In this document: positions 41,758-55,866 of the stretch, piece by piece
Numbering within the stretch: position 1 is the first letter of the stretch
Layout: each line of letters begins with the position of its first letter
Source: Caldalkalibacillus uzonensis
GTDB taxonomy: Bacteria > Bacillota > Bacilli > Caldalkalibacillales > Caldalkalibacillaceae
Reading direction: 5' to 3'
Assembly (NCBI RefSeq): GCF_030814135.1
Contig: NZ_JAUSUQ010000003.1
Coordinates: forward strand, 62,001 to 126,000
DNA: 64,000 nucleotides
Notes under the pieces: generated by a model
What the model was told of the DNA's origin: nothing
The model's database searches: none
The model's input: the letters and a program-made list of their open reading frames with translations, nothing else
Position numbers and translations under genes: made by a program

Positions 41758-42615
41758 TTAAACCCCTGAATAAGCAGAAAAACCACCATCTACAGGCACA
41801 ACAATACCATTGACAAAGCCCGATGCATGATCATCCACCAACCAGAGGAGCGTTCCAATCAACTCTTCACTTTTTCCAAACCGTCCCATGGGTGTCTGGT
41901 TGATGATTTTTTTCGCTCGATCAGTATAAGAACCATCTTCATTAAGTAACAAATTTCTGTTTTGCTCTGTCAGAAAAAAACCAGGCGCTATTGCATTCAC
42001 TCGTATCCCTACTTTTGAAAAATGTACGGCCAGCCATTGAGTAAAATTGGAAATGGCCGCTTTTGCCGCGCTATAGGCTGCAACTCTGGTCAAGGGTGTA
42101 AAGGCACTCATAGAAGATATATTGATAATCGTGGCCCCCTGTTTCCCAATCATATCTTGAGCAAAAACTTGAGTGGGCAACAAGGTGCCAAGATAATTAA
42201 GATTAAATACATATTCAATTCCTTCTTGGTTCAAGTCAAAGAAAGTGGTCACTTCTTTTCCTAATTGATCAAGTTCTTCAGGCCAAAAATAGTCCTTCGT
42301 GGTCGTTCCTTTAGGATGGTTACCTCCAGCTGCGTTGATCAGAATATCGCATGGTCCGAGACGCGCAATAATTTCTTCTTTTGCCTTCTTTAAAGCTCGT
42401 TTATCCAATACATCGGCATTTACACCAATCGCTCGGCCGCCGCGTGCCTGAATCTTATCAACAACCTGATCCAGCTTGGCCTTGGTCCGCCCCAAAACGG
42501 CCACCTTAGCTCCACAGATAGACAATGCCTCACAAAATGTGCTTCCTAATACACCGCTTCCACCTGTCACAACAGCCACTTTGTCGTTTAAATCAATTTT
42601 AAAAGGGACTTTCAT
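41758..42615 (-). CDS. uxuB: SDR-type D-mannonate oxidoreductase (fructuronate reductase)
   Basis: 285 residues from the second of two adjacent ATGs (42615), six bases after GGAGG. Short-chain dehydrogenase: VVTGGSGVLGS cofactor motif near the N-terminus, NAAGGNHP loop, catalytic S-Y-K (ISSMSAF..YSAAKAAI). The long insert with WPEELDQLGKEVTTFFDLNQEG is typical of bacillus YjmF-type mannonate oxidoreductases. It reduces D-fructuronate to D-mannonate. Last gene of the glucuronide operon, after uxuA. Confidence 0.9.
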   Translation of the reverse strand: MKVPFKIDLNDKVAVVTGGSGVLGSTFCEALSICGAKVAVLGRTKAKLDQVVDKIQARGGRAIGVNADVLDKRALKKAKEEIIARLGPCDILINAAGGNHPKGTTTKDYFWPEELDQLGKEVTTFFDLNQEGIEYVFNLNYLGTLLPTQVFAQDMIGKQGATIINISSMSAFTPLTRVAAYSAAKAAISNFTQWLAVHFSKVGIRVNAIAPGFFLTEQNRNLLLNEDGSYTDRAKKIINQTPMGRFGKSEELIGTLLWLVDDHASGFVNGIVVPVDGGFSAYSGV

Positions 42616-42657
42616 CATTTACCTCCAAAATGAATGATGATAAGGATTACTTTACTA

Positions 42658-43704
42658 TTATACAGTTGCTTTTTGGAGAGCTTCCCAAATGCCATTGAGG
42701 TAAGTGGCTCCCAACGCCCTGTCATACAATCCGTAGCCTGGTCTTCCTCTTTCACCCCAAATCATTCTTCCGTGATCAGGACGCATTGGCCCCTTATAGC
42801 CTATGTCATGAAATGCTTTTAACACTTCGACCATATCGATGGATCCGTCTGCCGAACGATGAGATGTTTCTACAAATGATTTTTCTCCTGTAATCCGAAC
42901 GTTACGGCAGTGAGCAAAGTGGATACGACCCATTTGCCCAAAGTATCTAATCATTTCCGGTAGATGATTGCTAGGATCCGCTCCAAGAGAACCCGTACAG
43001 AACGTTAACCCGTGGTTCGGACTATCGACCAGGCTGAGTAAACGTTCTAAATTTGTTTGGTTGGTGATAATGCGGGGCAAACCGAAAATGGACCATGGCG
43101 GGTCATCAGGGTGAATAGCCATTTTAACACCTACTTCATCAGCCGTGGCTATAATATGTTTTAAGAAATATTGCAGGTTATTCCATAAGTCTTCTTCTGA
43201 CACGCCTTGATATTGATCAATTAATACTTTTAACTCGCTTTTTTTGTAACTCGTATCCCATCCCGGAAGTTCTAAATCCCCAACCAGCGGGTTCATCCTT
43301 TGTATGGTTTCATCCTGATATATAAGGGTGGTTGAACCATCAGCAAATTGGTACTCTAAATGTGAGCGTGTCCAGTCAAAGACAGGCATAAAGTTGTAAC
43401 AAACAACCTTAATTCCCGCTTTGGCCAGATTCCGCAATGTTGCCTGGTAGTTGGCAATATACTTATCTCTGGTGGGTAACCCGAGTTTGATATCTTCATG
43501 AACCGGGACGCTCTCTATCACTTCTAAGGTTAACCCTTTGGCTTCAATCTTGCTTTTCAGTTCAAAAATTTTTTCCAAGGGCCAAGTCTCGCCAACAGGA
43601 ACGTCATAGATGGCAGAAACAATGCCTGAGACACCTGGAATTTGACGGATTTGGTCTAAAGTGACATTATCATCATCACCAAACCATCTGAAAGTCATCT
43701 TCAT
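42658..43704 (-). CDS. uxuA: Mannonate dehydratase
   Basis: 348 residues. Dehydrates D-mannonate to 2-keto-3-deoxy-gluconate. Xylose-isomerase-like barrel with the UxuA motifs MKMTFRWFGDDDNVTLDQIRQIPGV at the start, MAIHPDDPPWSIFGLPRI, FCTGSLGADPSNHLPEMIRYFG, HFAHCRNVR and MRPDHGRMIWGE, which include the metal ligands. Located between the GH31 glycosidase gene and uxuB in the operon. Confidence 0.96.
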   Translation of the reverse strand: MKMTFRWFGDDDNVTLDQIRQIPGVSGIVSAIYDVPVGETWPLEKIFELKSKIEAKGLTLEVIESVPVHEDIKLGLPTRDKYIANYQATLRNLAKAGIKVVCYNFMPVFDWTRSHLEYQFADGSTTLIYQDETIQRMNPLVGDLELPGWDTSYKKSELKVLIDQYQGVSEEDLWNNLQYFLKHIIATADEVGVKMAIHPDDPPWSIFGLPRIITNQTNLERLLSLVDSPNHGLTFCTGSLGADPSNHLPEMIRYFGQMGRIHFAHCRNVRITGEKSFVETSHRSADGSIDMVEVLKAFHDIGYKGPMRPDHGRMIWGERGRPGYGLYDRALGATYLNGIWEALQKATV

Positions 43705-43741: not shown

Positions 43742-46144
43742 TTAAGGAATTGCCACTTCGTATACCTGTCTCCTTTTTTGAGGTACCATCTTCCCATTGA
43801 TTAACAACGGTCTTTTTTCTCCATCAGGCAAATAAAATCGAACGTCTTTATAAGGAAGGGAATAATTACCTTCCTTTTCAACTTCTATCTTGATTTGATC
43901 CTCTGCACATATCATACGTACATGTAGAAAAGTAAAATAGCCATCCCTGTAACCGTATGAAACACCATCATCCTCAAAAAGATGAAAAACACTCTCCCCT
44001 TTCTCCTGATAAGGAAATAGATAAAAACCTCTTTCATCAGCAAATTTGTCCGAAAATGATACCTCTGCATCATTTACCGGAACGATGGCTCCTTCCATGA
44101 CCATTAAAGGCGTATAATCCAACGGAGCCGGAATTATAACGGTTGTTCCACTCGGGTACCATTCTCCCGTATGAAAGTTATACCAACCTCCTTCATGTTC
44201 GGGTAAATAAATTTCCCGCTCATAACTGTTTTTGTCCACCACCGATGCCACTAAAAGACTGTCTCCTAGCATAAAATCATCATTTTCTTTAAATGTGTTC
44301 GGGTCATGTTCAAAATTGTAAAAAGTTGGGCGAACAATTGGTTTACAATGCTGGTGAGCCTCATAAAGACATTGATACAAGTAGGGTGTAATCATATTAC
44401 GGAACTTAATTAGTTTTCGGATAAAAGGTATAACCTCCGGGTACATCCATGGCTCATTCACGGTTCCATCATCATTCCAGGAATGAATGGTAAACCTCGG
44501 GTGAAAAATGCCATTCTGAACCCATCGTACAAACAGCTCGGGCTCAGGAGCTGGACCGGCAAACCCCCCTACATCGTGCCCGAAATTATATATTCCTGAC
44601 AAACTCAAACCAATACCCATACGAATGTTGTATCTTAGCGTTTTCCATTCTGTATAGTTATCTCCCGACCAAGTCTGGGCATATCGTTGCATGCCCGGAC
44701 ATCCTGAACGTGAGATCAAATACGGGCGCTCATTAGGAGAATACTCTAACTGCGCTTCATAAGAGCTTTTAATCATTAACAATGTCTGCAGAGGCCTTAT
44801 CAAGCCTATCTCAATTGTTTTTCCAAACCCATTTGCCTTAGCTTTGCTATCCCAAATTTCGTATTCGTTGTTATCATTCCAAGTAGAGTCAATACCGTAA
44901 GCGAGCAAATTTTTCTTAATACTGCTTTTCCACCAATTTATGGTTTTAGGATTAGTAAAGTCTAGATATGAGCCGAGTCCATCCCAAAACTGACTTATTT
45001 CCGGTTCTTTTCCATCTCTTGACTCAACAAACATTCTCTCATATTTCAGTAGGTCATAATCAGGATGAACAGTGAGCAAGCAAGGCTTAATATTAGCGCA
45101 CAACTTCAAACCTTTGTTATGAAACGAACGAGTAAGCGCCTTTGGATCTGGAAATTTTGAACGGTCCCAATGAAATACACAACGTTTGTTTCCTAAAGTG
45201 GTATATCCGGAAGACAGTTGGAACGAATAACACAGAATATCATGTTGCTCACAAGAATCCACAAATTCCTGCAGTGCTGTTTGGGAATTAGGGGATTCAG
45301 TGTAAGTCATGGTAGATCCAGAATATCCGAGGCTCCATTTCGGTGGAAACGCTGTTCTTCCTGTAAGCCATGAGAATTTTTCCACCACTTCAGCAACGCT
45401 CGGTCCCAAAATAAAGTAGTAGTCCAAATCTCCGCCTTCTGCATGGTAGTAGCGGAATGGACCATGGTAATTGTCCTTCTCTTTGCCAAAATCTATGACC
45501 GACGTAGCCAAATTATCATAAAATAATCCATAAGCATACTTTTTTTCCATATTTCTAGTGATATAAAAGGGAATATGTTTATAAAGAGGATCTGTGGTTT
45601 CCGCATCATACCCCATAGGATCCATATTTAACATTCTAAATCGACGGCCATACCGATTCACATTTCCGGTTTTTTCTCCTAATCCATAATACTGTTCATC
45701 CGCCGTACGTTCCATATAATGGAATATTCCTTCACCAAGGCTGTCCAATAAATTGTAAGCCTGTGTCTGTCTGTCCCTTGCAATGGGGATCCAATCATTT
45801 TCCTTTTTGAAATACCAACTGATTTTAAATCCATCAAGATTGATCTCTGCTTTCATTTTTTTCGTCATTACATAAAAGTAATTTCCATCCTGTTCAGAGT
45901 GGGCTGGTGGAAGAGTAAATGGAGATATGTCCAGTCTGTCCCTTCCTTCGAAAGGAATGTCATCAAACCCAGGTGCAACACACCATGTTCTGTCCAGTTT
46001 CAAATCATCTTGATAAATCAATACACGAAATATATCCTCCTCAAGAACAAAAAAACGAATTTCAACAGGTTCATCTCTCAATTTAAACATAAAGCAGTTG
46101 TTTTGCTCTTTTACGAATTGAAAGGGATAGTGTTCTCTAATCAT
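43742..46144 (-). CDS. GH31-family alpha-glycosidase, intracellular
   Basis: 800 residues, no signal peptide. GH31 retaining glycosidase: nucleophile D424 in DSTWNDNNE, acid/base D495 in WSGDNYTEW, plus the late GHDVGGFAGPAPEPELFVRWVQNGIFHPRFTIHSW block. N-terminal GH31 beta-sandwich (YGLGEKTGNVNR) and C-terminal beta domains are present. Family members cleave alpha-glucosides, alpha-xylosides or related bonds. Placement between the TRAP transporter/beta-glucuronidase and uxuA suggests it trims the alpha-linked part of imported glucuronate-containing oligosaccharides. Substrate unproven. Confidence 0.92.
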   Translation of the reverse strand: MIREHYPFQFVKEQNNCFMFKLRDEPVEIRFFVLEEDIFRVLIYQDDLKLDRTWCVAPGFDDIPFEGRDRLDISPFTLPPAHSEQDGNYFYVMTKKMKAEINLDGFKISWYFKKENDWIPIARDRQTQAYNLLDSLGEGIFHYMERTADEQYYGLGEKTGNVNRYGRRFRMLNMDPMGYDAETTDPLYKHIPFYITRNMEKKYAYGLFYDNLATSVIDFGKEKDNYHGPFRYYHAEGGDLDYYFILGPSVAEVVEKFSWLTGRTAFPPKWSLGYSGSTMTYTESPNSQTALQEFVDSCEQHDILCYSFQLSSGYTTLGNKRCVFHWDRSKFPDPKALTRSFHNKGLKLCANIKPCLLTVHPDYDLLKYERMFVESRDGKEPEISQFWDGLGSYLDFTNPKTINWWKSSIKKNLLAYGIDSTWNDNNEYEIWDSKAKANGFGKTIEIGLIRPLQTLLMIKSSYEAQLEYSPNERPYLISRSGCPGMQRYAQTWSGDNYTEWKTLRYNIRMGIGLSLSGIYNFGHDVGGFAGPAPEPELFVRWVQNGIFHPRFTIHSWNDDGTVNEPWMYPEVIPFIRKLIKFRNMITPYLYQCLYEAHQHCKPIVRPTFYNFEHDPNTFKENDDFMLGDSLLVASVVDKNSYEREIYLPEHEGGWYNFHTGEWYPSGTTVIIPAPLDYTPLMVMEGAIVPVNDAEVSFSDKFADERGFYLFPYQEKGESVFHLFEDDGVSYGYRDGYFTFLHVRMICAEDQIKIEVEKEGNYSLPYKDVRFYLPDGEKRPLLINGKMVPQKRRQVYEVAIP

Positions 46145-46324: not shown

Positions 46325-47629
46325 CTAGATGAGCCCCAATAATCTCGGAATAAACAAGCTAATTTGAGGAATGTAAGTTACGAGAAATAATGTAATAATA
46401 AGTGTTATAAAGAAAAGCAGTAACGGCTTAATTACCTCCTCAATCGACACTCTCCCCACACTGCAACCAATAAATAAACAACTACCGACAGGAGGGGTCA
46501 TGATACCAATGCCTAAATTAAACACCATCAAGACACCAAAATGCACTGGATCTATACCTAATTGAACTGCAATAGGCAGGAAGATAGGTGTGAAAATCAA
46601 GACAGCCGGTGTTAAATCCATAAAGGTCCCAATGATCAATAAAACCACAGTCATAATAAACATGACTACAAAGTAATTATCGGAAATAGCAAGAATCGCA
46701 TTACTGAGCGCAGCCGGTATTCCTGCAATCGTCATCACCCAAGACATGATGGATGAAGCACCTACAAGAAACAGCACAATACCTGTCATTACAATAGTTT
46801 CCCGCAATATTTTGGGTATATCTCTCAACCTAAGAGAGCGATAGATCAGCGACAAAATGAAGGAATACAATACAGCAACCGCTGCACCTTCAGTGGCCGT
46901 GAAAATACCTGCTACAATCCCCCCGATGACAATCACGATCAGCAATAAGCTGGGTATGGCATCCAAAATGATTTTCATCGCTTCTTTGAAGCTGACCCGT
47001 GGAGAGACGGGATAATTCTCCTTTTTTGCGATATAATAAGCAACAATCATAACAGCAATTCCCATCAGGAAACCAGGTATATATCCCGCCATAAATAGCG
47101 CAGATATGGATGTTCCTCCACTCACAAGGGAGTAAAGAATAAAAACACCGCTTGGAGGTATCAGTAATCCAACTGGAGCTGAAGCAATGTTGACCGCTGC
47201 AGAATACGCCTTGTTATAACCTTCTTTCGCTTGCAATGGGGCCATGATGCTGCCAATAGCCGCTGCTGAAGCAACGGCTGAGCCGGATATGGAACCGAAA
47301 AGCATATTCCCTACCACGTTGGTGTGCGCCAGGGAACCTGGCAATCTGCCACTGATCAGCTTAGCCAAGTTCACCAGTCGTAAAGCAATGCCACCATTAT
47401 TCATAATGCTTCCTGATAAAATAAAGAAAATAACGGCTAAAAGGGCAAAACTGTTTATCCCACCCACCATTTTTTGAGCAGCGGTAAACAAAACGATATC
47501 TATGGGAAGCACAAGCAATGCCGCCAACAACGAAGCAATGCCAATGCTAACAGGTATGGGGACACCGATGAATAGAAGGATAAAAAAACTGACAAATAGC
47601 AGCAAACCTACTTGAAGCGCTGCCTCCAT
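46325..47629 (-). CDS. dctM: TRAP transporter large permease subunit (DctM), system 1
   Basis: 434 residues, about 12 hydrophobic segments, DctM type. Conserved blocks GSISGSAVASAAAIGSIMAPLQAKEGYNKAYSAAVNIASAPVGLLIPPSGVFILYS and GIDPVHFGVLMVFNLGIGIMTPPVGSCLFIGC are intact. With DctQ and DctP it imports an organic acid driven by the Na+ or proton gradient. The operon setting suggests glucuronides or glucuronate. It starts 27 bases after dctQ. Confidence 0.94.
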   Translation of the reverse strand: MEAALQVGLLLFVSFFILLFIGVPIPVSIGIASLLAALLVLPIDIVLFTAAQKMVGGINSFALLAVIFFILSGSIMNNGGIALRLVNLAKLISGRLPGSLAHTNVVGNMLFGSISGSAVASAAAIGSIMAPLQAKEGYNKAYSAAVNIASAPVGLLIPPSGVFILYSLVSGGTSISALFMAGYIPGFLMGIAVMIVAYYIAKKENYPVSPRVSFKEAMKIILDAIPSLLLIVIVIGGIVAGIFTATEGAAVAVLYSFILSLIYRSLRLRDIPKILRETIVMTGIVLFLVGASSIMSWVMTIAGIPAALSNAILAISDNYFVVMFIMTVVLLIIGTFMDLTPAVLIFTPIFLPIAVQLGIDPVHFGVLMVFNLGIGIMTPPVGSCLFIGCSVGRVSIEEVIKPLLLFFITLIITLFLVTYIPQISLFIPRLLGLI

Positions 47630-47656: not shown

Positions 47657-48136
47657 CTAAGTTTTCTTGATATTGCCGATCCAGTCCTTAATGTTCAAAA
47701 TCTGATATATGATAATAATCACGCCAGAAATAGGCAATATTGTGTAAACATACCCCATTGGAATTTTTAAGATTGGTGAAACCTGTGTCATTGTAGAAAT
47801 GGAAATGTCATAGCCTCCTTTGACCAAGATTACAGCGGCAAAACATATGACGAGCAAATCATTGATCATGCGAACAACCTGCTGCCTTCTTCCCTTTAGC
47901 TTATTTCTCAAAAAAACAATGGCCAGATGCTGATTGGTACCAAACGCATAGCTAGCACCGAGCATTGCCACCCATATCAATACAAAGCGGAGTAATTCTT
48001 CCGTAAACGTACTCGGGGCATTGAGTACATATCGACTAAAAACCTGCCACAGTGCTCCCAATACAAGAACAACCGTCAATACAGACGTTGTTATCATCAG
48101 CATTTTGTTCATGGCAACCCTGAGTTTATCCATCAT
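47657..48136 (-). CDS. dctQ: TRAP transporter small permease subunit (DctQ), system 1
   Basis: 159 residues with four membrane helices, DctQ type (FSRYVLNAPSTFTEELLRFVLIWVAMLGASYAF and HLAIVFL). It overlaps the beta-glucuronidase gene by four bases (ATGA). Partner of the DctM and DctP proteins of the same operon. Confidence 0.92.
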   Translation of the reverse strand: MMDKLRVAMNKMLMITTSVLTVVLVLGALWQVFSRYVLNAPSTFTEELLRFVLIWVAMLGASYAFGTNQHLAIVFLRNKLKGRRQQVVRMINDLLVICFAAVILVKGGYDISISTMTQVSPILKIPMGYVYTILPISGVIIIIYQILNIKDWIGNIKKT

Positions 48137-49977
48137 CTCCTACCCCCATGGCCATCTGACTCCTGTGAGATTTCAGCAGGTGCTGTCCAGCGCTCCTTTA
48201 GCGTATAGGCACTCATTTTTGGTTGGCGCTGGCGAGTAAAAACACCTTTCCTATTCCCGTCAATACGCACGAGATCTTCTTTTGTCATGAAATCTGCAAA
48301 ATTCCAGACATGCTCTCCTTTAAGATATCCAAGACGGTCAAACACCTGATGATACGCCTGAAAAAAAGACACTTGATATTCCTCAGAATACATGACAGGA
48401 GGCTGCCTGTGAAGCCCTTGTATAGTATCAACACCATATTCCGTAATCATCAATGGTTTTCCCAACGTCCGGTGCCAATCTTCTAGAAATTGTTCCAAAC
48501 GGGCAGAAGCTGCTTTTAAATTGGCCATTTCTGAATACCAACCAAAATACGTATTTAACCCAATGACATCGAATAGCTTTGATACACGGCACTTTTTAGG
48601 TTCTATCAACATCAGGTTGACGATCATCAGAGGGCGGTCATCAAGCTTACGTGTTTCATCCACAAGTTTTCGAAAATAAGGTTCTGCATTTTCTTCCATT
48701 GTGGATGCTTCATTCGCTAACGACCACATTACCACACAGGGATGATTCTTGTCACGCCGAATCATGTCACGTGTCACACGTATATGATGCTCAAGCGTTT
48801 TGTCATTGATTTTCTCCTGGTGGAAAACATCTTCAAGTTCACCCATGGCAGGGACTGCCTTGCTTAACATACCTACCGCGGGCACTTCACTAATGACTAC
48901 AATACCTTGACGATCGGCTATATCTAACACTTCTTCTGCATATGGATAATGAGAGGTCCGGAATGAGTTAGCTCCAATCCATTCCATGAGATAAAAATCC
49001 CTCAGGATTAATGCATGATCAAACCCTTTCCCCTTAATGTCCATATCTTCATGCTTGCCAAAACCTCGAAAATAAAATGGACGACCATTGATTAAGAACG
49101 AATTTCCTTCGACCTTCACCGTCCTGATACCAATATTTAACTCATAATGGTCAACTTCTACATGTTGTTCATCGTATAAACAAACACTCATCCGATAAAG
49201 ATAAGCATCCCCCGGATTCCACAGTTGTACATCCTGTACCTTTATTTTCCCGATTTCTCCTTTACCTTCAGCGACTTTGTTTCCGGATGCATCATAAAGA
49301 AACACCTTAACTATCGAATCAGACAAAAAAGAAGGGTTCTGCTGAGAGATACAAACTTGATAATCTACAAAACCGGTATGCCCTTCAAAAGAAGTCTTTA
49401 TCGTCACATCTTCAATATAGGTCATTGGTGTGGTATACAGATAAACCGGGCGATGAATTCCACTGTAATTGAAAAAATCATGTTGCTGATGCAAATCCTT
49501 ACGTGAAACGCCGTCTGCGTCTTGATGAAAGGAGACCTCTCCAGGAGGAAGCATTTCCCAAGACAATTCATTGTTGACACATACAACCAAATGATTTAAT
49601 TGCCCGTAATAGACAACATTAGTTATATCGGCTTCAAATGGTAAAAATCCGCCCTTATTCCTGACAATCTCTTCCCCATTAACCCATACGGTACCACTGT
49701 GTGTCACGCTCCCAAAACGTAACATAACACGACGATCAGACCAGTCCTTTGGTACATAGAAATACCTTTCATACCAAACATCACCAATATAATCTCTTAA
49801 CTGGGGGTCGGTAGTGATCTCATTGTAACTGGATGGGACAGGCATCAAAATTGGACAAGGTAGTCCTTTGGAAAACCACTTAAATGATCGCCCGTGTCCA
49901 TCAGGATCCGCCTGAAAGTGCCAAATACCTGACAAATCCTTACACTCTCTAGTGCGCGTTTCTCTCGGATATAACAC
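48133..49977 (-). CDS. uidA: Beta-glucuronidase (GH2)
   Basis: 614 residues. The frame is open to 50055, but the GTG at 49977 has GGAG eight bases upstream and gives M-LYPRETRTRE, which lines up with the E. coli UidA N-terminus (MLRPVETPTRE). Acid/base is E423 (SLANEAST) and nucleophile E513 (MITEYGVDT). The N575-R-K577 motif (NRKGVFTRQRQPK) that recognises the glucuronate carboxylate in E. coli GUS is conserved. No signal peptide, so it acts inside the cell on imported glucuronides. It follows dctP after a strong hairpin. Confidence 0.95.
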   Translation of the reverse strand: MLYPRETRTRECKDLSGIWHFQADPDGHGRSFKWFSKGLPCPILMPVPSSYNEITTDPQLRDYIGDVWYERYFYVPKDWSDRRVMLRFGSVTHSGTVWVNGEEIVRNKGGFLPFEADITNVVYYGQLNHLVVCVNNELSWEMLPPGEVSFHQDADGVSRKDLHQQHDFFNYSGIHRPVYLYTTPMTYIEDVTIKTSFEGHTGFVDYQVCISQQNPSFLSDSIVKVFLYDASGNKVAEGKGEIGKIKVQDVQLWNPGDAYLYRMSVCLYDEQHVEVDHYELNIGIRTVKVEGNSFLINGRPFYFRGFGKHEDMDIKGKGFDHALILRDFYLMEWIGANSFRTSHYPYAEEVLDIADRQGIVVISEVPAVGMLSKAVPAMGELEDVFHQEKINDKTLEHHIRVTRDMIRRDKNHPCVVMWSLANEASTMEENAEPYFRKLVDETRKLDDRPLMIVNLMLIEPKKCRVSKLFDVIGLNTYFGWYSEMANLKAASARLEQFLEDWHRTLGKPLMITEYGVDTIQGLHRQPPVMYSEEYQVSFFQAYHQVFDRLGYLKGEHVWNFADFMTKEDLVRIDGNRKGVFTRQRQPKMSAYTLKERWTAPAEISQESDGHGGRR

Positions 49978-50010
49978 TGACATATCTCCTATCTGTTTGA
50001 TATACAAAAT

Positions 50011-50042
50011 CGATATGCTCTGTACAAAAACAGAGCATATCG
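50011..50042 (-). terminator. Intercistronic hairpin between dctP and uidA
   Basis: CGATATGCTCTGT (50011-50023) and ACAGAGCATATCG (50030-50042) form a perfect 13-bp stem with a 6-base loop. On the minus strand it runs into ATTTTG. It likely limits read-through or protects the dctP mRNA end, giving more binding protein than enzyme. Confidence 0.75.
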
Positions 50043-50078
50043 TGTTAGAGAACAATTCTTACTAGGGCAAATAAATAT

Positions 50079-51128
50079 CTATTGCAATGCCTCAATGGCT
50101 TCCATCAAAGTATTGATTTGCGGATCTTGTCTATACTTTTCCAACATTGGCTGAACGGCTTCACGGAAAGGTTTCGGATCAGGATAATAAAATTCAACCC
50201 CCATCTCTTCAGCTTCTTTTTGGGCCACCTCTAGGGCCTCATTCCATATTTCTTTGTGATATTCAGTCGACTCCGCTGCTGCTTGAAGCAGGATTTCCTG
50301 TTGTTCTGTAGATAGTTCATCCCAGACATCTGAACTGATGACGACAATATCAGGAATTCTCGTATGTTCATTAAACGAGAACGCTTTGGCTACTTCGCCA
50401 TGGCCACCAGTCGTTAATACTGTGACATTACTTTCAGCACCATCCACAACACCTTGTTGAAGATCTGTGTATATTTCACCGTACGGCATAGGGGTGGGTG
50501 CGCCGCCCAAAATCTCCACTAACTCAATCTGCGTTGGACTATCCATCACACGAATTTTTAGTCCTTTTAAATCGTCTGGATGCATAATTGGTGTATCTAC
50601 AGTGTAAAAACTTCTCGCACCTGAATCGTAGTAGGTCAAACCAATAAATCCCTGTTCCTTTGTTGCTTGATACAATTCCCGAACAGCCTCTGATTCCATC
50701 GATCTATAGAAATGATCCCGATCCATAAAAACATAAGGCAAACTGAACACCGCATATTGTGAAGCAAAATTTTCGAGGGACGCAGCACTTACCTTCGTTA
50801 TCGCAACACCTCCTGCTTGTACCTGCTCTAATACCTCTCTCTCATCACCAAGTACACCATTGGCAAAAATATCAAACTTAATTTCTCCGTTTGTACGCTC
50901 TTCTACAAGTTCCGTAAACTTTACCAATCCTAAGTGAACAGGATGTTCTTCACTTAAGTTATGCGCGAGGGTAAGCTTAAAAGATTGAGCACCAGATTCG
51001 CCATTACCAGCATCATTCTCATTATTCCCTTCATTCATTGGTGCTGTTTCATTGCCACCTTCCTGGCTACATGCTACTAACATTAGCATTAGAACGATCA
51101 TACTAGTTAAGACTAGAAACCGTTTCAT
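50079..51128 (-). CDS. dctP: TRAP transporter DctP-type binding lipoprotein, system 1
   Basis: 349 residues with lipobox ending at C20 (LMLVACSQ) and an acidic Asn/Glu-rich linker. DctP family: FKLTLAHNLSEEHPVHLGLVKFTELVEERTNGEIKFDIFANGVLGDEREVLEQVQ, and the carboxylate-binding Arg segment GLKIRVMDSPTQIELVEILGGAPTPMPYGEIYTDLQQGVVDGAE. It captures the acid, most likely a glucuronide or glucuronate. First gene of the operon, behind a promoter with a LacI-type operator. Confidence 0.93.
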   Translation of the reverse strand: MKRFLVLTSMIVLMLMLVACSQEGGNETAPMNEGNNENDAGNGESGAQSFKLTLAHNLSEEHPVHLGLVKFTELVEERTNGEIKFDIFANGVLGDEREVLEQVQAGGVAITKVSAASLENFASQYAVFSLPYVFMDRDHFYRSMESEAVRELYQATKEQGFIGLTYYDSGARSFYTVDTPIMHPDDLKGLKIRVMDSPTQIELVEILGGAPTPMPYGEIYTDLQQGVVDGAESNVTVLTTGGHGEVAKAFSFNEHTRIPDIVVISSDVWDELSTEQQEILLQAAAESTEYHKEIWNEALEVAQKEAEEMGVEFYYPDPKPFREAVQPMLEKYRQDPQINTLMEAIEALQ

Positions 51129-51358: not shown

Positions 51359-51378
51359 AAATAACAACGTTGTTATTT
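51359..51378. promoter_or_regulatory. Palindromic operator at the dctP promoter
   Basis: AAATAACAACGTTGTTATTT is a perfect 20-bp palindrome with the central CG usual for LacI-family operators. The core ATAACAACGTTGTTAT (51361-51376) begins five bases after the -10 element, covering the transcription start. The same core recurs at 52609-52624. Confidence 0.85.
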
Positions 51379-51508: not shown

Positions 51509-52507
51509 ATGGGTGTAACAATCAAGGATATAGCCAAAAGAGCAGGTGTCAGCTATTCAACCGTATCAAAAGCTTTAAGAAACAGCCCGTTGGTCAAGGA
51601 AGATACGAAAAAGAAAATCATCAGTATAGCCAATGAACTGGGCTATCAACCCAATGTTGCTGCACGAAGCCTCGTTTCAAAGAAATCATGGACCGTCGGG
51701 GTAGTGTGGCCTACGGTTGAACGTGTTGCGCCATCAACGTTAATCACGAAAATCAATGAAGAATTGGAGAAGCATGCATATACTACTCTTGTTTCCATTA
51801 ACAAAATTGATACGGCTATCGAAACGTTCCATCGGTTTCAGGTTGATGCAATCCTTGTCTTTTATGATCGAGATGACATTGATATTGAATCTCTGCCTCA
51901 GCACTCCAACATCCCTATTTTGTACTATGGAATCGCTGGAAGTTCACCTTTTCCAACTATAGACGTTAACCGAAAAAAAGCCATCCAGCTAGCTGTTAAT
52001 CATCTTTCCGAATTAGGTCATAAAGATATCGCCTATATAGGTGATCTGGCAGAGCGGGATCTTTTTCAAATCGAAAAAGTTAAGAGTTTTAAAGAGTCCA
52101 TCCAGCAGCGGGGAATCGAGTTAAGGCAGGATATGATTGCCCAAATTAATGGTTTGGAGTCTCATGATGGTTATCTGGCAGCCAGAAGCATGCTGCAAAA
52201 AAAACAAAGGCCAACCGCCCTCATTAGTGCCAGTTATGATTTAACAAGGGGAATTTTACGTGCTGTCAATGAAGCAGGGCTTAATATTCCAAAAGATATC
52301 TCTATCGTTTCCTACGACAATATCCCCCAGATGCAAAACCTCGTTGTTCCTGTTACCATTGTCGGAGTGGAATTAACTGATATAACAAAGAAAGTGACAG
52401 AAATTTTGCTGCAAATGATTGAATCTAAGGAAGTTCCAAGCGCCATTTATTTAGAACCGGAGCTCGTGGTAAGGAAATCAAGTGCCCCTCCTAAAGACGT
52501 CTTGTAA
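51509..52507 (+). CDS. LacI-family repressor of the glucuronide genes
   Basis: 332 residues. N-terminal HTH and hinge (TIKDIAKRAGVSYSTVSKALRNSPLVKEDTKKKI, LGYQPNVAARSL) followed by a periplasmic-binding-like effector domain. It lies between the two copies of a perfect palindromic operator, at dctP and at the IolB-like gene, so it most likely represses both. The effector is probably glucuronate or a downstream intermediate such as fructuronate. A GGGGG stretch precedes the ATG, and a hairpin terminator follows. Confidence 0.93.
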   Translation: MGVTIKDIAKRAGVSYSTVSKALRNSPLVKEDTKKKIISIANELGYQPNVAARSLVSKKSWTVGVVWPTVERVAPSTLITKINEELEKHAYTTLVSINKIDTAIETFHRFQVDAILVFYDRDDIDIESLPQHSNIPILYYGIAGSSPFPTIDVNRKKAIQLAVNHLSELGHKDIAYIGDLAERDLFQIEKVKSFKESIQQRGIELRQDMIAQINGLESHDGYLAARSMLQKKQRPTALISASYDLTRGILRAVNEAGLNIPKDISIVSYDNIPQMQNLVVPVTIVGVELTDITKKVTEILLQMIESKEVPSAIYLEPELVVRKSSAPPKDVL

Positions 52508-52608: not shown

Positions 52609-52624
52609 ATAACAACGTTGTTAT
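52609..52624. promoter_or_regulatory. Palindromic operator at the IolB-like gene
   Basis: ATAACAACGTTGTTAT, a perfect 16-bp palindrome identical to the core of the dctP operator. It covers the expected transcription start, so the LacI-family protein encoded between the two sites should repress this gene too. Confidence 0.85.
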
Positions 52625-52651
52625 TTGTGATAATTTTAACTTAATAAGGAG

Positions 52652-53464
52652 ATGATGATTTTGAGTCGCTTCCACAGAGCTCGTTATGTTGAAGGCTACC
52701 AAGACATTATTCCTGAAGAAGGCATCCTATTGAAATATTTAGCCTTTGGAAAAATCTCACTTAAACAAGGGCAGAATTATTCGAGTCAAACTGGCAATTA
52801 TGAAACAGTCCTTGTAATAATGACCGGGACGGCAACTATTGTTTCTGAAAATAAGAAATGGGAGCATTTAGGCGGCAGAAATACTGTTTTTGATGGGAAA
52901 GGAACAGCAGTCTATGTGCCATGTCAATCCGAATATAAAGTGTATGCGGAATCCGATGTACACATCGCAGTTTGCAAAGCCAAAGCGGAAGAAAAGTTCG
53001 AACCTTTTGTCGTTACACCTGACGAGATAGTGATCCATCACCGTGGGAAGGAGACTTGGCAACGGGAAGTTCATGATATTATCGCCGATAACGCTGACGG
53101 TCGTGTACAGCGAATTGTCTTGGGGGAAACCTTTAATCATCCAGGACACTGGTCTGGATACCCCCCCCATAAACATGACGGTGAGTTTTTTCCCGAGGAA
53201 CCTAATTTAGAAGAAGTATATCATTTTCAAGTAAATCCTGAGCAAGGATTCGGTGTACAATTACACTATACCAAAGATGGAAGTATAGATAATGCTTATA
53301 TTGTACGCCAAGGAGATACCTTTGCCATTGATAAAGGCTACCACCCTGTGGCAGCAGCAGGTGGTTATCAGGTGTATTATCTGTGGTTTATGGCGGGTAA
53401 TACCGGACGAACATTAAATCCCTATGAAGATGCCGATCATAAATGGCTACATCATAAAAAATAA
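52652..53464 (+). CDS. IolB/KduI-family sugar-acid isomerase
   Basis: 270 residues, the length of IolB (5-deoxy-glucuronate isomerase). Bicupin with the metal-site region HWSGYPPHKHDGEFFPEEPNLEEVYHF and the matching distal histidine in DKGYHPVAAAGGYQVYYLWFMAG. No inositol genes (iolCDEG) are nearby; instead it shares an operator with the glucuronide operon, which lacks uxaC. It may therefore isomerise D-glucuronate to D-fructuronate. The related KduI has been reported to affect hexuronate isomerisation in E. coli. Family assignment is firm; the substrate is inference. Confidence 0.88.
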   Translation: MMILSRFHRARYVEGYQDIIPEEGILLKYLAFGKISLKQGQNYSSQTGNYETVLVIMTGTATIVSENKKWEHLGGRNTVFDGKGTAVYVPCQSEYKVYAESDVHIAVCKAKAEEKFEPFVVTPDEIVIHHRGKETWQREVHDIIADNADGRVQRIVLGETFNHPGHWSGYPPHKHDGEFFPEEPNLEEVYHFQVNPEQGFGVQLHYTKDGSIDNAYIVRQGDTFAIDKGYHPVAAAGGYQVYYLWFMAGNTGRTLNPYEDADHKWLHHKK

Positions 53465-53627: not shown

Positions 53628-54206
53628 TCAATGTCTATCTTTTATAACTGCTAAAAATTGTTTCATAAACTCAGGCAAGTCTCTCCACGTTTGGCCAGAT
53701 ACCAGATTTCCATCTCTATAAACCAGCTCATTGATAAATTCTGCCCCTGCTTGCTCTACTTCATAACGGCATGTTGGAACAGCAGTCATCTTTCTCTGTG
53801 TCAAAAGTTCCTTTAATTCTGGAACCAGGAAAACGATGGCTCCGTGACAAATAACGCCTATAGGTTTATTTTCCCTTAAAAAATGTCCGACAATATGTGG
53901 AGTCTCCGGTTTTGTACGAATATGTTCAGGAGCTCTTCCGCCAGGGATCATGAGTGCATCATAATCTTCAGGATTCACGTCGCTAAATTTTTTCTGCGCA
54001 GGAACTCGATAGGCTAACCTTTCGGTTGAAATCTCCATAATGCCAGGCTGTCTGTCATGTACAACAGTTTGTACCTCATCTTTGTTTGGTACTGCGACTG
54101 TTACCTCAAAACCTTCTTCTCTAAAACGATATAACGGATAAATCACTTCCAGTGTCTCTGCAGCGTCTCCCGTTAAGATGAGAACCTTTTTACTCATCAC
54201 TATCAT
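53628..54206 (-). CDS. DJ-1/PfpI-family protein
   Basis: 192 residues from ATG 54206, which overlaps the eda stop in a TGATG arrangement; ATG 54197 is an alternative. DJ-1/PfpI fold with nucleophile-elbow cysteine C120 (GVICHGAIVFL) and MIPGGRAPEHIRTKP. Members include glyoxalase III/deglycase-like enzymes and chaperones. As last gene of the kdgK-eda operon it may detoxify reactive aldehydes or handle sugar-acid by-products, but this is guesswork. Confidence 0.87.
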   Translation of the reverse strand: MIVMSKKVLILTGDAAETLEVIYPLYRFREEGFEVTVAVPNKDEVQTVVHDRQPGIMEISTERLAYRVPAQKKFSDVNPEDYDALMIPGGRAPEHIRTKPETPHIVGHFLRENKPIGVICHGAIVFLVPELKELLTQRKMTAVPTCRYEVEQAGAEFINELVYRDGNLVSGQTWRDLPEFMKQFLAVIKDRH

Positions 54207-54868
54207 CACCTTCCCTTTTGCTTGTTATTTTTAACCTTTTTGATTGTGTTCACAAACTGGCTGGCTAGATCAGTCAGCTGATCGTACGCTTTTTGATTGA
54301 TGAGATCAGGTTTTAACAGGGCGCCCCCTACACCTACAGCCACAGCCCCGTTTTCAATAAATGCGGGGATGTTGTCCAGGTTCACACCGCCTGTGGGCAT
54401 GAGCCGGATATGGGGTAGCGGCCCCCGCAGTTCTTTAAAATAACCAGGCCCCAACACAGAGGCTGGGAACACTTTGATCAAATCCGCCCCACTGCGATGG
54501 GCCTGAACAATTTCAGTGGGCGTCATGGCTCCCGGAATAGAAATTCTGTTGTGCTTAACAGTTTCTGCTACAACATCGTGGTCATAATGGGGAGAGAATA
54601 CAAAGTCAACGCCGCAATCAACCGCCTGTTTGGTCTGTTCTACTGTCAGCACTGTGCCCGCTCCAACGAGAACTTTATCTCCAAATCTGCCTTTCAAGCT
54701 TTCAATCATCTGTGGAGCATCTTCAGAATCAAAAGTAATTTCAAGGGCTTTGACTCCGCCGTCTACCAGGGCTTGGGCAATGGCCTCCACTTCAGCAGAG
54801 GGCGGCCGACGAACAACAACCACAAGACCACTGTCCAACAACTGTCGTAACACCTGTTCTTTTTCCAT
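54206..54868 (-). CDS. eda: 2-keto-3-deoxy-6-phosphogluconate (KDPG) aldolase
   Basis: 220 residues. Cleaves KDPG to pyruvate and glyceraldehyde-3-phosphate. The Schiff-base lysine is K132 (DLIKVFPAS), with E43 (ALEITFDSE) as proton-transfer residue and the phosphate-binding MPTGGVN segment. GVGGALLKPDL near the C-terminus is family typical. It follows kdgK by 35 bases and ends in a one-base overlap with the PfpI gene. Confidence 0.95.
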   Translation of the reverse strand: MEKEQVLRQLLDSGLVVVVRRPPSAEVEAIAQALVDGGVKALEITFDSEDAPQMIESLKGRFGDKVLVGAGTVLTVEQTKQAVDCGVDFVFSPHYDHDVVAETVKHNRISIPGAMTPTEIVQAHRSGADLIKVFPASVLGPGYFKELRGPLPHIRLMPTGGVNLDNIPAFIENGAVAVGVGGALLKPDLINQKAYDQLTDLASQFVNTIKKVKNNKQKGR

Positions 54869-54903: not shown

Positions 54904-55866
54904 TTAACGTACAACGTCCTGTCTAGTGCCATTGTCCTCTAGTTTCTGCTGTACCTCAGCCCAATAAGGCAGTCCTTCCACATCACCGCTGACTCCCACC
55001 ACTATGGCGCCTATCGCATTGCCCAAACGTACAGCCTCTTGGATCGTCCAACCACGAAGCAATCCGCTCATAACCCCTGCGGCAAATCCGTCACCAGCAC
55101 CGACAGGATCAACGACTTCCTCAACCGTAAAGCCTGGAACGTAACCTTTTTCTTGACTGTTAGTGTAATAGGCACCCTTTGCGCCCAGTTTAACAACAAA
55201 AGTTTGCTGTTCATGGGCACGCAGAGCGTCCACAATTTTTTCAGGTTGTGTTTCTCCGGTTATGAGCTGCCCCTCTTCTACGCCGGGTAAAACAATGTCG
55301 GCCTGACGAATCAAATCGAGCAGCACAGGCTTGGCTTCTTCTATGGACCATAACTTAAGACGAATGTTGGGGTCAAACACAATTTTGACTCCCTTCGCCT
55401 TTGCTACCTCTATCGCTTTATACACAGCTTCCTTGGCCGATTGACTGAGCGCTGGGGTAATCCCAGACAGATGCAGCATTTTGGCCGATCCGATGTACGT
55501 TTCATCAAGTTCGTCCGCTCGCAGTAAACTTGCTGCTGAACCTTTGCGGTAATAGTATACATTGATGTTTTTTGGAGTTAATTTTTCCTTAAAAAATACC
55601 GCAGTGGGGGCTTGATCTGTATAAATGCACCGACTGGTATCCACCCCTTCCCCTCTGATAAATTTCTCAATGTAACGCCCAAACGGGTCATTACCCAACT
55701 TGCTGAACCAGCCCACCTGATGTCCCAATCGCGCCAAACCAATAGCTACATTGGACTCGGCACCGCCAATCTGTTTGTAAAACTGATGGGTATACTCAAG
55801 CGGTACTAACCGGTCTGAACTAAATAGCACCATGGTTTCACCGAATGTAGCAACGTCTAATGTCAT
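54904..55866 (-). CDS. kdgK: 2-keto-3-deoxygluconate kinase (PfkB family)
   Basis: 320 residues, ribokinase fold. Opens DVATFGETMVLFSSDR, has the substrate-lid GGAESNVAIGLARLG, and ends with the anion hole/catalytic DPVGAGDGFAAG. It phosphorylates the KDG made by UxuA to KDPG for Eda. GAGGTGG precedes the ATG. It is preceded by 280 bases with a cre site and repeats, so it may have its own promoter besides read-through from the TRAP genes. Confidence 0.93.
   Translation of the reverse strand: MTLDVATFGETMVLFSSDRLVPLEYTHQFYKQIGGAESNVAIGLARLGHQVGWFSKLGNDPFGRYIEKFIRGEGVDTSRCIYTDQAPTAVFFKEKLTPKNINVYYYRKGSAASLLRADELDETYIGSAKMLHLSGITPALSQSAKEAVYKAIEVAKAKGVKIVFDPNIRLKLWSIEEAKPVLLDLIRQADIVLPGVEEGQLITGETQPEKIVDALRAHEQQTFVVKLGAKGAYYTNSQEKGYVPGFTVEEVVDPVGAGDGFAAGVMSGLLRGWTIQEAVRLGNAIGAIVVGVSGDVEGLPYWAEVQQKLEDNGTRQDVVR

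Follow-up and report, generated by a model that had tools for sequence, protein, structure and literature searches.

An IolB-like bicupin is predicted to take the place of the uronate isomerase UxaC in a glucuronide island of Caldalkalibacillus uzonensis and in related Bacilli

How does a glucuronide-degrading gene island lead from glucuronate to fructuronate when the genome has no UxaC? The question is raised by the window analysed here, a stretch of 64,000 nucleotides from Caldalkalibacillus uzonensis (Table 1). An earlier note had read from it an island encoding beta-glucuronidase, UxuB, UxuA, KdgK and Eda, and had proposed that an IolB-like protein replaces UxaC. All five enzymes were recovered by profile matches, KdgK by its placement in the pfkB family; the UxuA match reached 507 bits against a cut-off of 191. 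Two TRAP systems were found by profile searches in the window neighbourhood of the isomerase gene. The GH31 enzyme encoded between uxuA and the TRAP genes stayed below every equivalog cut-off. The DJ-1/PfpI gene overlaps the end of eda and possibly encodes a deglycase or an aldehyde-damage protein.

Table 1. Features of the glucuronide island and related loci. Positions are those of the window unless a locus handle is given.
Feature	Position	Strand	Evidence
UxuB, SDR-type D-mannonate oxidoreductase (fructuronate reductase)	41758..42618	-	NF006132, 454 bits vs 281
UxuA mannonate dehydratase	42658..43704	-	NF003027, PF03786
GH31 glycoside hydrolase	43742..46144	-	PF01055
TRAP transporter large permease	46325..47629	-	TIGR00786
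TRAP transporter small permease	47657..48136	-	ORF and position between other TRAP genes
GH2 beta-glucuronidase	48133..50055	-	NF007538, 816.8 bits vs cut-off 544
TRAP transporter substrate-binding protein	50079..51128	-	profile search
Operator copy 2 (TAACAACGTTGTTA), divergent region between TRAP/glucuronidase operon and lacI	51362..51375		genome-wide sequence search
LacI-family repressor, presumed to bind the operator	51509..52507	+	profile searches; 50-55% identical LacI near type II genes of relatives
Palindromic LacI-type operator TAACAACGTTGTTA, directly 5' of the isomerase ORF	52610..52623		genome-wide sequence search
Type II IolB-like bicupin, predicted D-glucuronate/D-galacturonate ketol-isomerase (UxaC analogue)	52652..53464	+	PF04962, TIGR04378, clade, AlphaFold model
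DJ-1/PfpI family protein, in operon of eda and kdgK	53628..54209	-	PF01965
Eda/KdgA aldolase	54206..54868	-	TIGR01182, 192 bits vs 156
KdgK-type pfkB kinase	54904..55866	-	PF00294; NF040938 top match, below cut-off
Deep IolB-like loci	L082:5198-6022, L086:8698-9738, L093:8968-9780, L083:2438-3334, L084:8968-9765, L080:8986-9774

The genome (3.88 Mb in 53 contigs) is rated 100% complete. A uxaC gene outside the island was looked for with PF02614, which matched nothing in the whole genome and did match in seven control genomes. Profile searches of the same genome returned no second PF04962 (KduI/IolB) protein, leaving a count of one. Neither IolE nor UxaB gave anything above cut-off genome-wide. 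Without UxaB, the galacturonate branch that depends on it is unavailable, which makes UxuB and UxuA the expected recipients of the isomerase product. A second uxuB-uxuA-TRAP cluster, which includes a zinc alcohol dehydrogenase, lies on contig 2 (L158:8428-14356), and a decayed second uxuA, 80% identical to that of the window, lies on contig 4 with a GH31-like ORF nearby (L162:5300-5900); an isomerase gene was found neither in the contig 2 cluster nor near the contig 4 uxuA. The one congener examined (G001) has neither UxuA nor a member of PF04962, which shows that possession of the glucuronide island varies within the genus.

The isomerase ORF is unbroken and, read from its ATG, encodes 270 aa. 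Since the ribosome-binding site AAGGAG at 52646-52651 directly abuts this ATG, the spacing makes a start at TTG 52661 (267 aa, MSRFHRARYVEG...) the likelier one. That the gene encodes an IolB/KduI-family bicupin was borne out by a whole-length match to PF04962 (280.7 bits, cut-off 23.9) and by an AlphaFold model with a bicupin fold (pLDDT 86.7). The protein also passes the IolB equivalog model TIGR04378 (243.7 bits, cut-off 205). In structure comparison the closest fold was the IolB-like 2qjv (Z 34.4), and KduI scored about 23 (1xru, Z 23.7). The metal-site motif HxH..E..H is invariant, its residues being putative metal ligands named after those of KduI, and E51, R76 and R138 are likewise common to canonical IolB and to the form found here, which we call type II. 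At four aligned positions type II has V152, G158, T160 and W245 where canonical IolB has A, V, V and N.

The isomerase gene had been said to share the operator of the glucuronide operon, and the two sites are identical; TAACAACGTTGTTA occurs without mismatch at exactly these two places in the 3.88 Mb genome. A one-mismatch copy on contig 5 (L159:8798) was dismissed, as a gene start was not found near it. Five relatives carry the operator, with no or one mismatch, 5' of their type II gene (L040, L043, L047, L056 and L059), and a LacI 50-55% identical to that of the window is encoded near the type II gene in the same five; L056 has an extra operator copy between lacI and uxaA. This conservation argues that regulator, operator and isomerase travel as a set with hexuronate genes. 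LacI presumably binds these operators.

Is the window protein a single odd gene? A survey of PF04962 in 399 genomes of the organism's class gave three groups of scores with a few members between them, namely canonical IolB (about 290-391 bits), type II (about 250-290 bits) and KduI (about 115-130 bits). The window isomerase scores with type II, a form present in 35 of the 399 genomes. In a maximum-likelihood tree it falls into a clade of 44 rows (100/99) that holds all 35 proteins from uxaB loci, and every IolB from an inositol locus lies outside. Its closest relatives, one of them from Bacillus sp. OV166, are ~70% identical. The relevant unit is the whole subfamily, which apparently has no name so far. 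Deep IolB-like lineages outside both clades were seen in Armatimonadota, Chloroflexota and Helarchaeota MAGs. The gene in L084 adjoins one for an SDR 50% identical to the window UxuB, that in L080 adjoins a UxaB homologue, and those in L082, L086 and L093 have a similar-looking protein of ~312 aa alongside.

Type II genes were found in 41 loci, a count in which three pairs are one locus from two collections. UxaB is encoded in 35 of the 41, and at 30 loci the type II gene has uxaA or uxaB on its own strand no more than 300 bp away; UxuA is present in six. Next to uxaA and uxaB, type II genes sit at the place where a uxaC gene would be anticipated. The neighbour identified as UxaB scored 630.9 bits against a cut-off of 359. 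The second neighbour is an altronate/galactarate-type dehydratase below the galactarate equivalog cut-off, and its label 'UxaA' comes from family and context. IolD and IolE were found in none of the type II loci, in line with the earlier observation that inositol genes are absent near the window gene; a weak (24-25%) IolG-like oxidoreductase occurs in two. Canonical IolB loci, in contrast, almost invariably contain iol genes, and UxaB was seen in none of them. The context of type II in most relatives is galacturonate catabolism through UxaA and UxaB, with the window genome as the glucuronate-only case. One family (f8) takes in Alicyclobacillus contaminans and A. pomorum, the loci of which are identical. 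In some 18 loci a peptidase-M24-like protein of ~360 aa, matching aminopeptidase models weakly, is encoded beside the type II gene and uxaA/uxaB (e.g. L062:7811-8890, L060:16138-17214, L059:6716-7789); in L059 the operator also stands 5' of this gene.

The link to hexuronate catabolism was also seen at the level of whole genomes. UxaB is present in 34 of the 35 type II genomes (Fisher p = 2.5e-23, 399 genomes, kinship not corrected), and the only exception is the window genome, which has UxuA and UxuB instead. UxaC occurs in 57 of the 92 genomes with UxaB; of the remaining 35, 28 have type II and 7 lack it as well. UxaC is missing from 28 of the 34 UxaB-positive genomes that carry type II and from 7 of the 58 that do not (p = 1.4e-11, kinship not corrected). 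A manual count of genera from the tables gives a weaker association (14 of 20 versus 6 of 21, p = 0.013). UxuA-positive genomes behave similarly, UxaC being absent from 18 of 24 with type II and from 20 of 100 others (p = 6.6e-7, kinship uncorrected). Within one genus (g10), type II occurs without UxaC in ten species, and UxaC without type II in three. UxaC is encoded alongside type II in six genomes, in L040 within the same cluster. In G174 and G351 UxaC adjoins uxuA and type II sits with uxaA/uxaB, a placement suggesting that galacturonate may be the preferred substrate of type II in these two genomes. UxaB is above cut-off in seven genomes (G137, G180, G204, G295, G353, G374 and G383) that lack both UxaC and type II; these may have yet another uronate isomerase or use a different route.

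The absence of UxaC, the separate clade, the uxaA/uxaB context, the anti-correlation with UxaC and the conserved operator together support, as a predicted activity, the proposal that the IolB-like protein replaces UxaC. It is very likely a hexuronate-converting, metal-dependent aldose-ketose isomerase of the IolB/KduI fold that feeds the island route under LacI repression through the two operators. Members of the KduI/IolB family interconvert the aldose and ketose forms of uronate-like sugars at a metal site, and the substrate of IolB differs from glucuronate only in the missing C5 hydroxyl. A type II protein that tolerates this hydroxyl would convert glucuronate to fructuronate, or galacturonate to tagaturonate; its most likely function is the former reaction in the window organism and the latter in most relatives. 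We infer substrate, metal and reaction direction. In the proposed scheme a TRAP system would take up glucuronides, from which the GH2 beta-glucuronidase would then free D-glucuronate; the type II isomerase would turn this into D-fructuronate at its metal site, the SDR-type UxuB would reduce D-fructuronate to D-mannonate, UxuA would dehydrate D-mannonate to KDG, and KdgK followed by Eda would complete KDG breakdown. LacI would repress both the glucuronide operon and the isomerase gene through the identical operators. For the subfamily as a whole, it is likely that type II proteins are dedicated isomerases of D-galacturonate and D-glucuronate, that they have taken over from UxaC in many Bacilli lineages, and that databases generally mislabel them as IolB.

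The passed TIGR04378 cut-off would suit an ordinary IolB, acting on 5-deoxy-glucuronate and left over from or serving inositol catabolism. This is highly unlikely: IolE is not above cut-off anywhere in the genome, a well-supported split (100/99) separates the protein from those of iol loci in the tree, neither IolD nor IolE occurs in any type II locus while iol genes are almost always present in canonical ones, and nine genomes have both forms. The window protein could also be read as an additional type of KduI, with 5-keto-4-deoxyuronate released by lyases from pectin or glycosaminoglycans as its substrate; it shares Pfam family and fold with KduI, and certain loci do hold KdgK and Eda without UxuA. 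Score and fold nevertheless place it nearer to IolB, KduD does not seem to be a regular partner in the loci, to judge by general SDR matches, which occur in few type II loci, and the window operon begins with a hydrolase, not a lyase. The regular neighbours are UxaB and UxaA, which need a UxaC-type step and so speak against this reading, which we regard as very improbable.

Little credence is due to an oxidative route in which glucuronate would pass through uronate dehydrogenase and then glucarate dehydratase, leaving the isomerase an accessory role. A glucarate dehydratase is encoded on contig 2 (C2:328733-330052), but no recognisable uronate dehydrogenase was found beside it, simple inspection of the eight PF01370 proteins did not reveal one either, and the island encodes UxuA and UxuB, which require fructuronate. 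Context alone cannot separate adjacent pathway steps, and a tagaturonate/fructuronate epimerase (a UxaE-like role) or a hexuronate mutarotase, with another protein as the true isomerase, would fit the same loci; given the aldose-ketose isomerisation known for the family, and since an epimerase would leave the absence of UxaC unexplained, this is extremely unlikely.

If type II is the hexuronate isomerase proposed here, the missing step would be filled in genomes that look broken without UxaC, and a systematic mis-annotation, to which the window protein is subject through the IolB equivalog model, would be corrected. Hexuronate activity in the KduI family would become directly testable with the window protein, the genome of which has no UxaC, and a small bicupin isomerase could be of use in pectin and sugar-acid work.

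Among known systems, UxaC (PF02614) is the counterpart in predicted reaction, pathway place and operon place. Its fold, an amidohydrolase-type TIM barrel, is unrelated to the bicupin; type II has no sequence match to it, and the two are largely mutually exclusive across genomes. Canonical IolB (TIGR04378) resembles type II in fold, metal-site residues and length, at 36-39% identity, and in a reaction of the same kind; it differs in its separate clade, its iol rather than hexuronate loci and the four substituted positions. E. coli KduI belongs to the same Pfam family; strain and growth data led to the proposal that it substitutes for UxaC during osmotic stress (PMC3578941). In that paper, in which IolB is unmentioned, hexuronate isomerisation by KduI, the link that the earlier note had invoked, is stated as a hypothesis. 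KduI differs in its 11-16% identity to the window isomerase by structure alignment, in its main substrate, 5-keto-4-deoxyuronate, and in that UxaC is present in that E. coli system. Parts of a review of hexuronate catabolism list UxaC and KduI and name no IolB-type enzyme (PMC6353982), and searches of the open-licence literature turned up no paper describing an IolB-type hexuronate isomerase. In type II, a fold and a class of reaction that are already known would serve in a predicted role, that of displacing UxaC.
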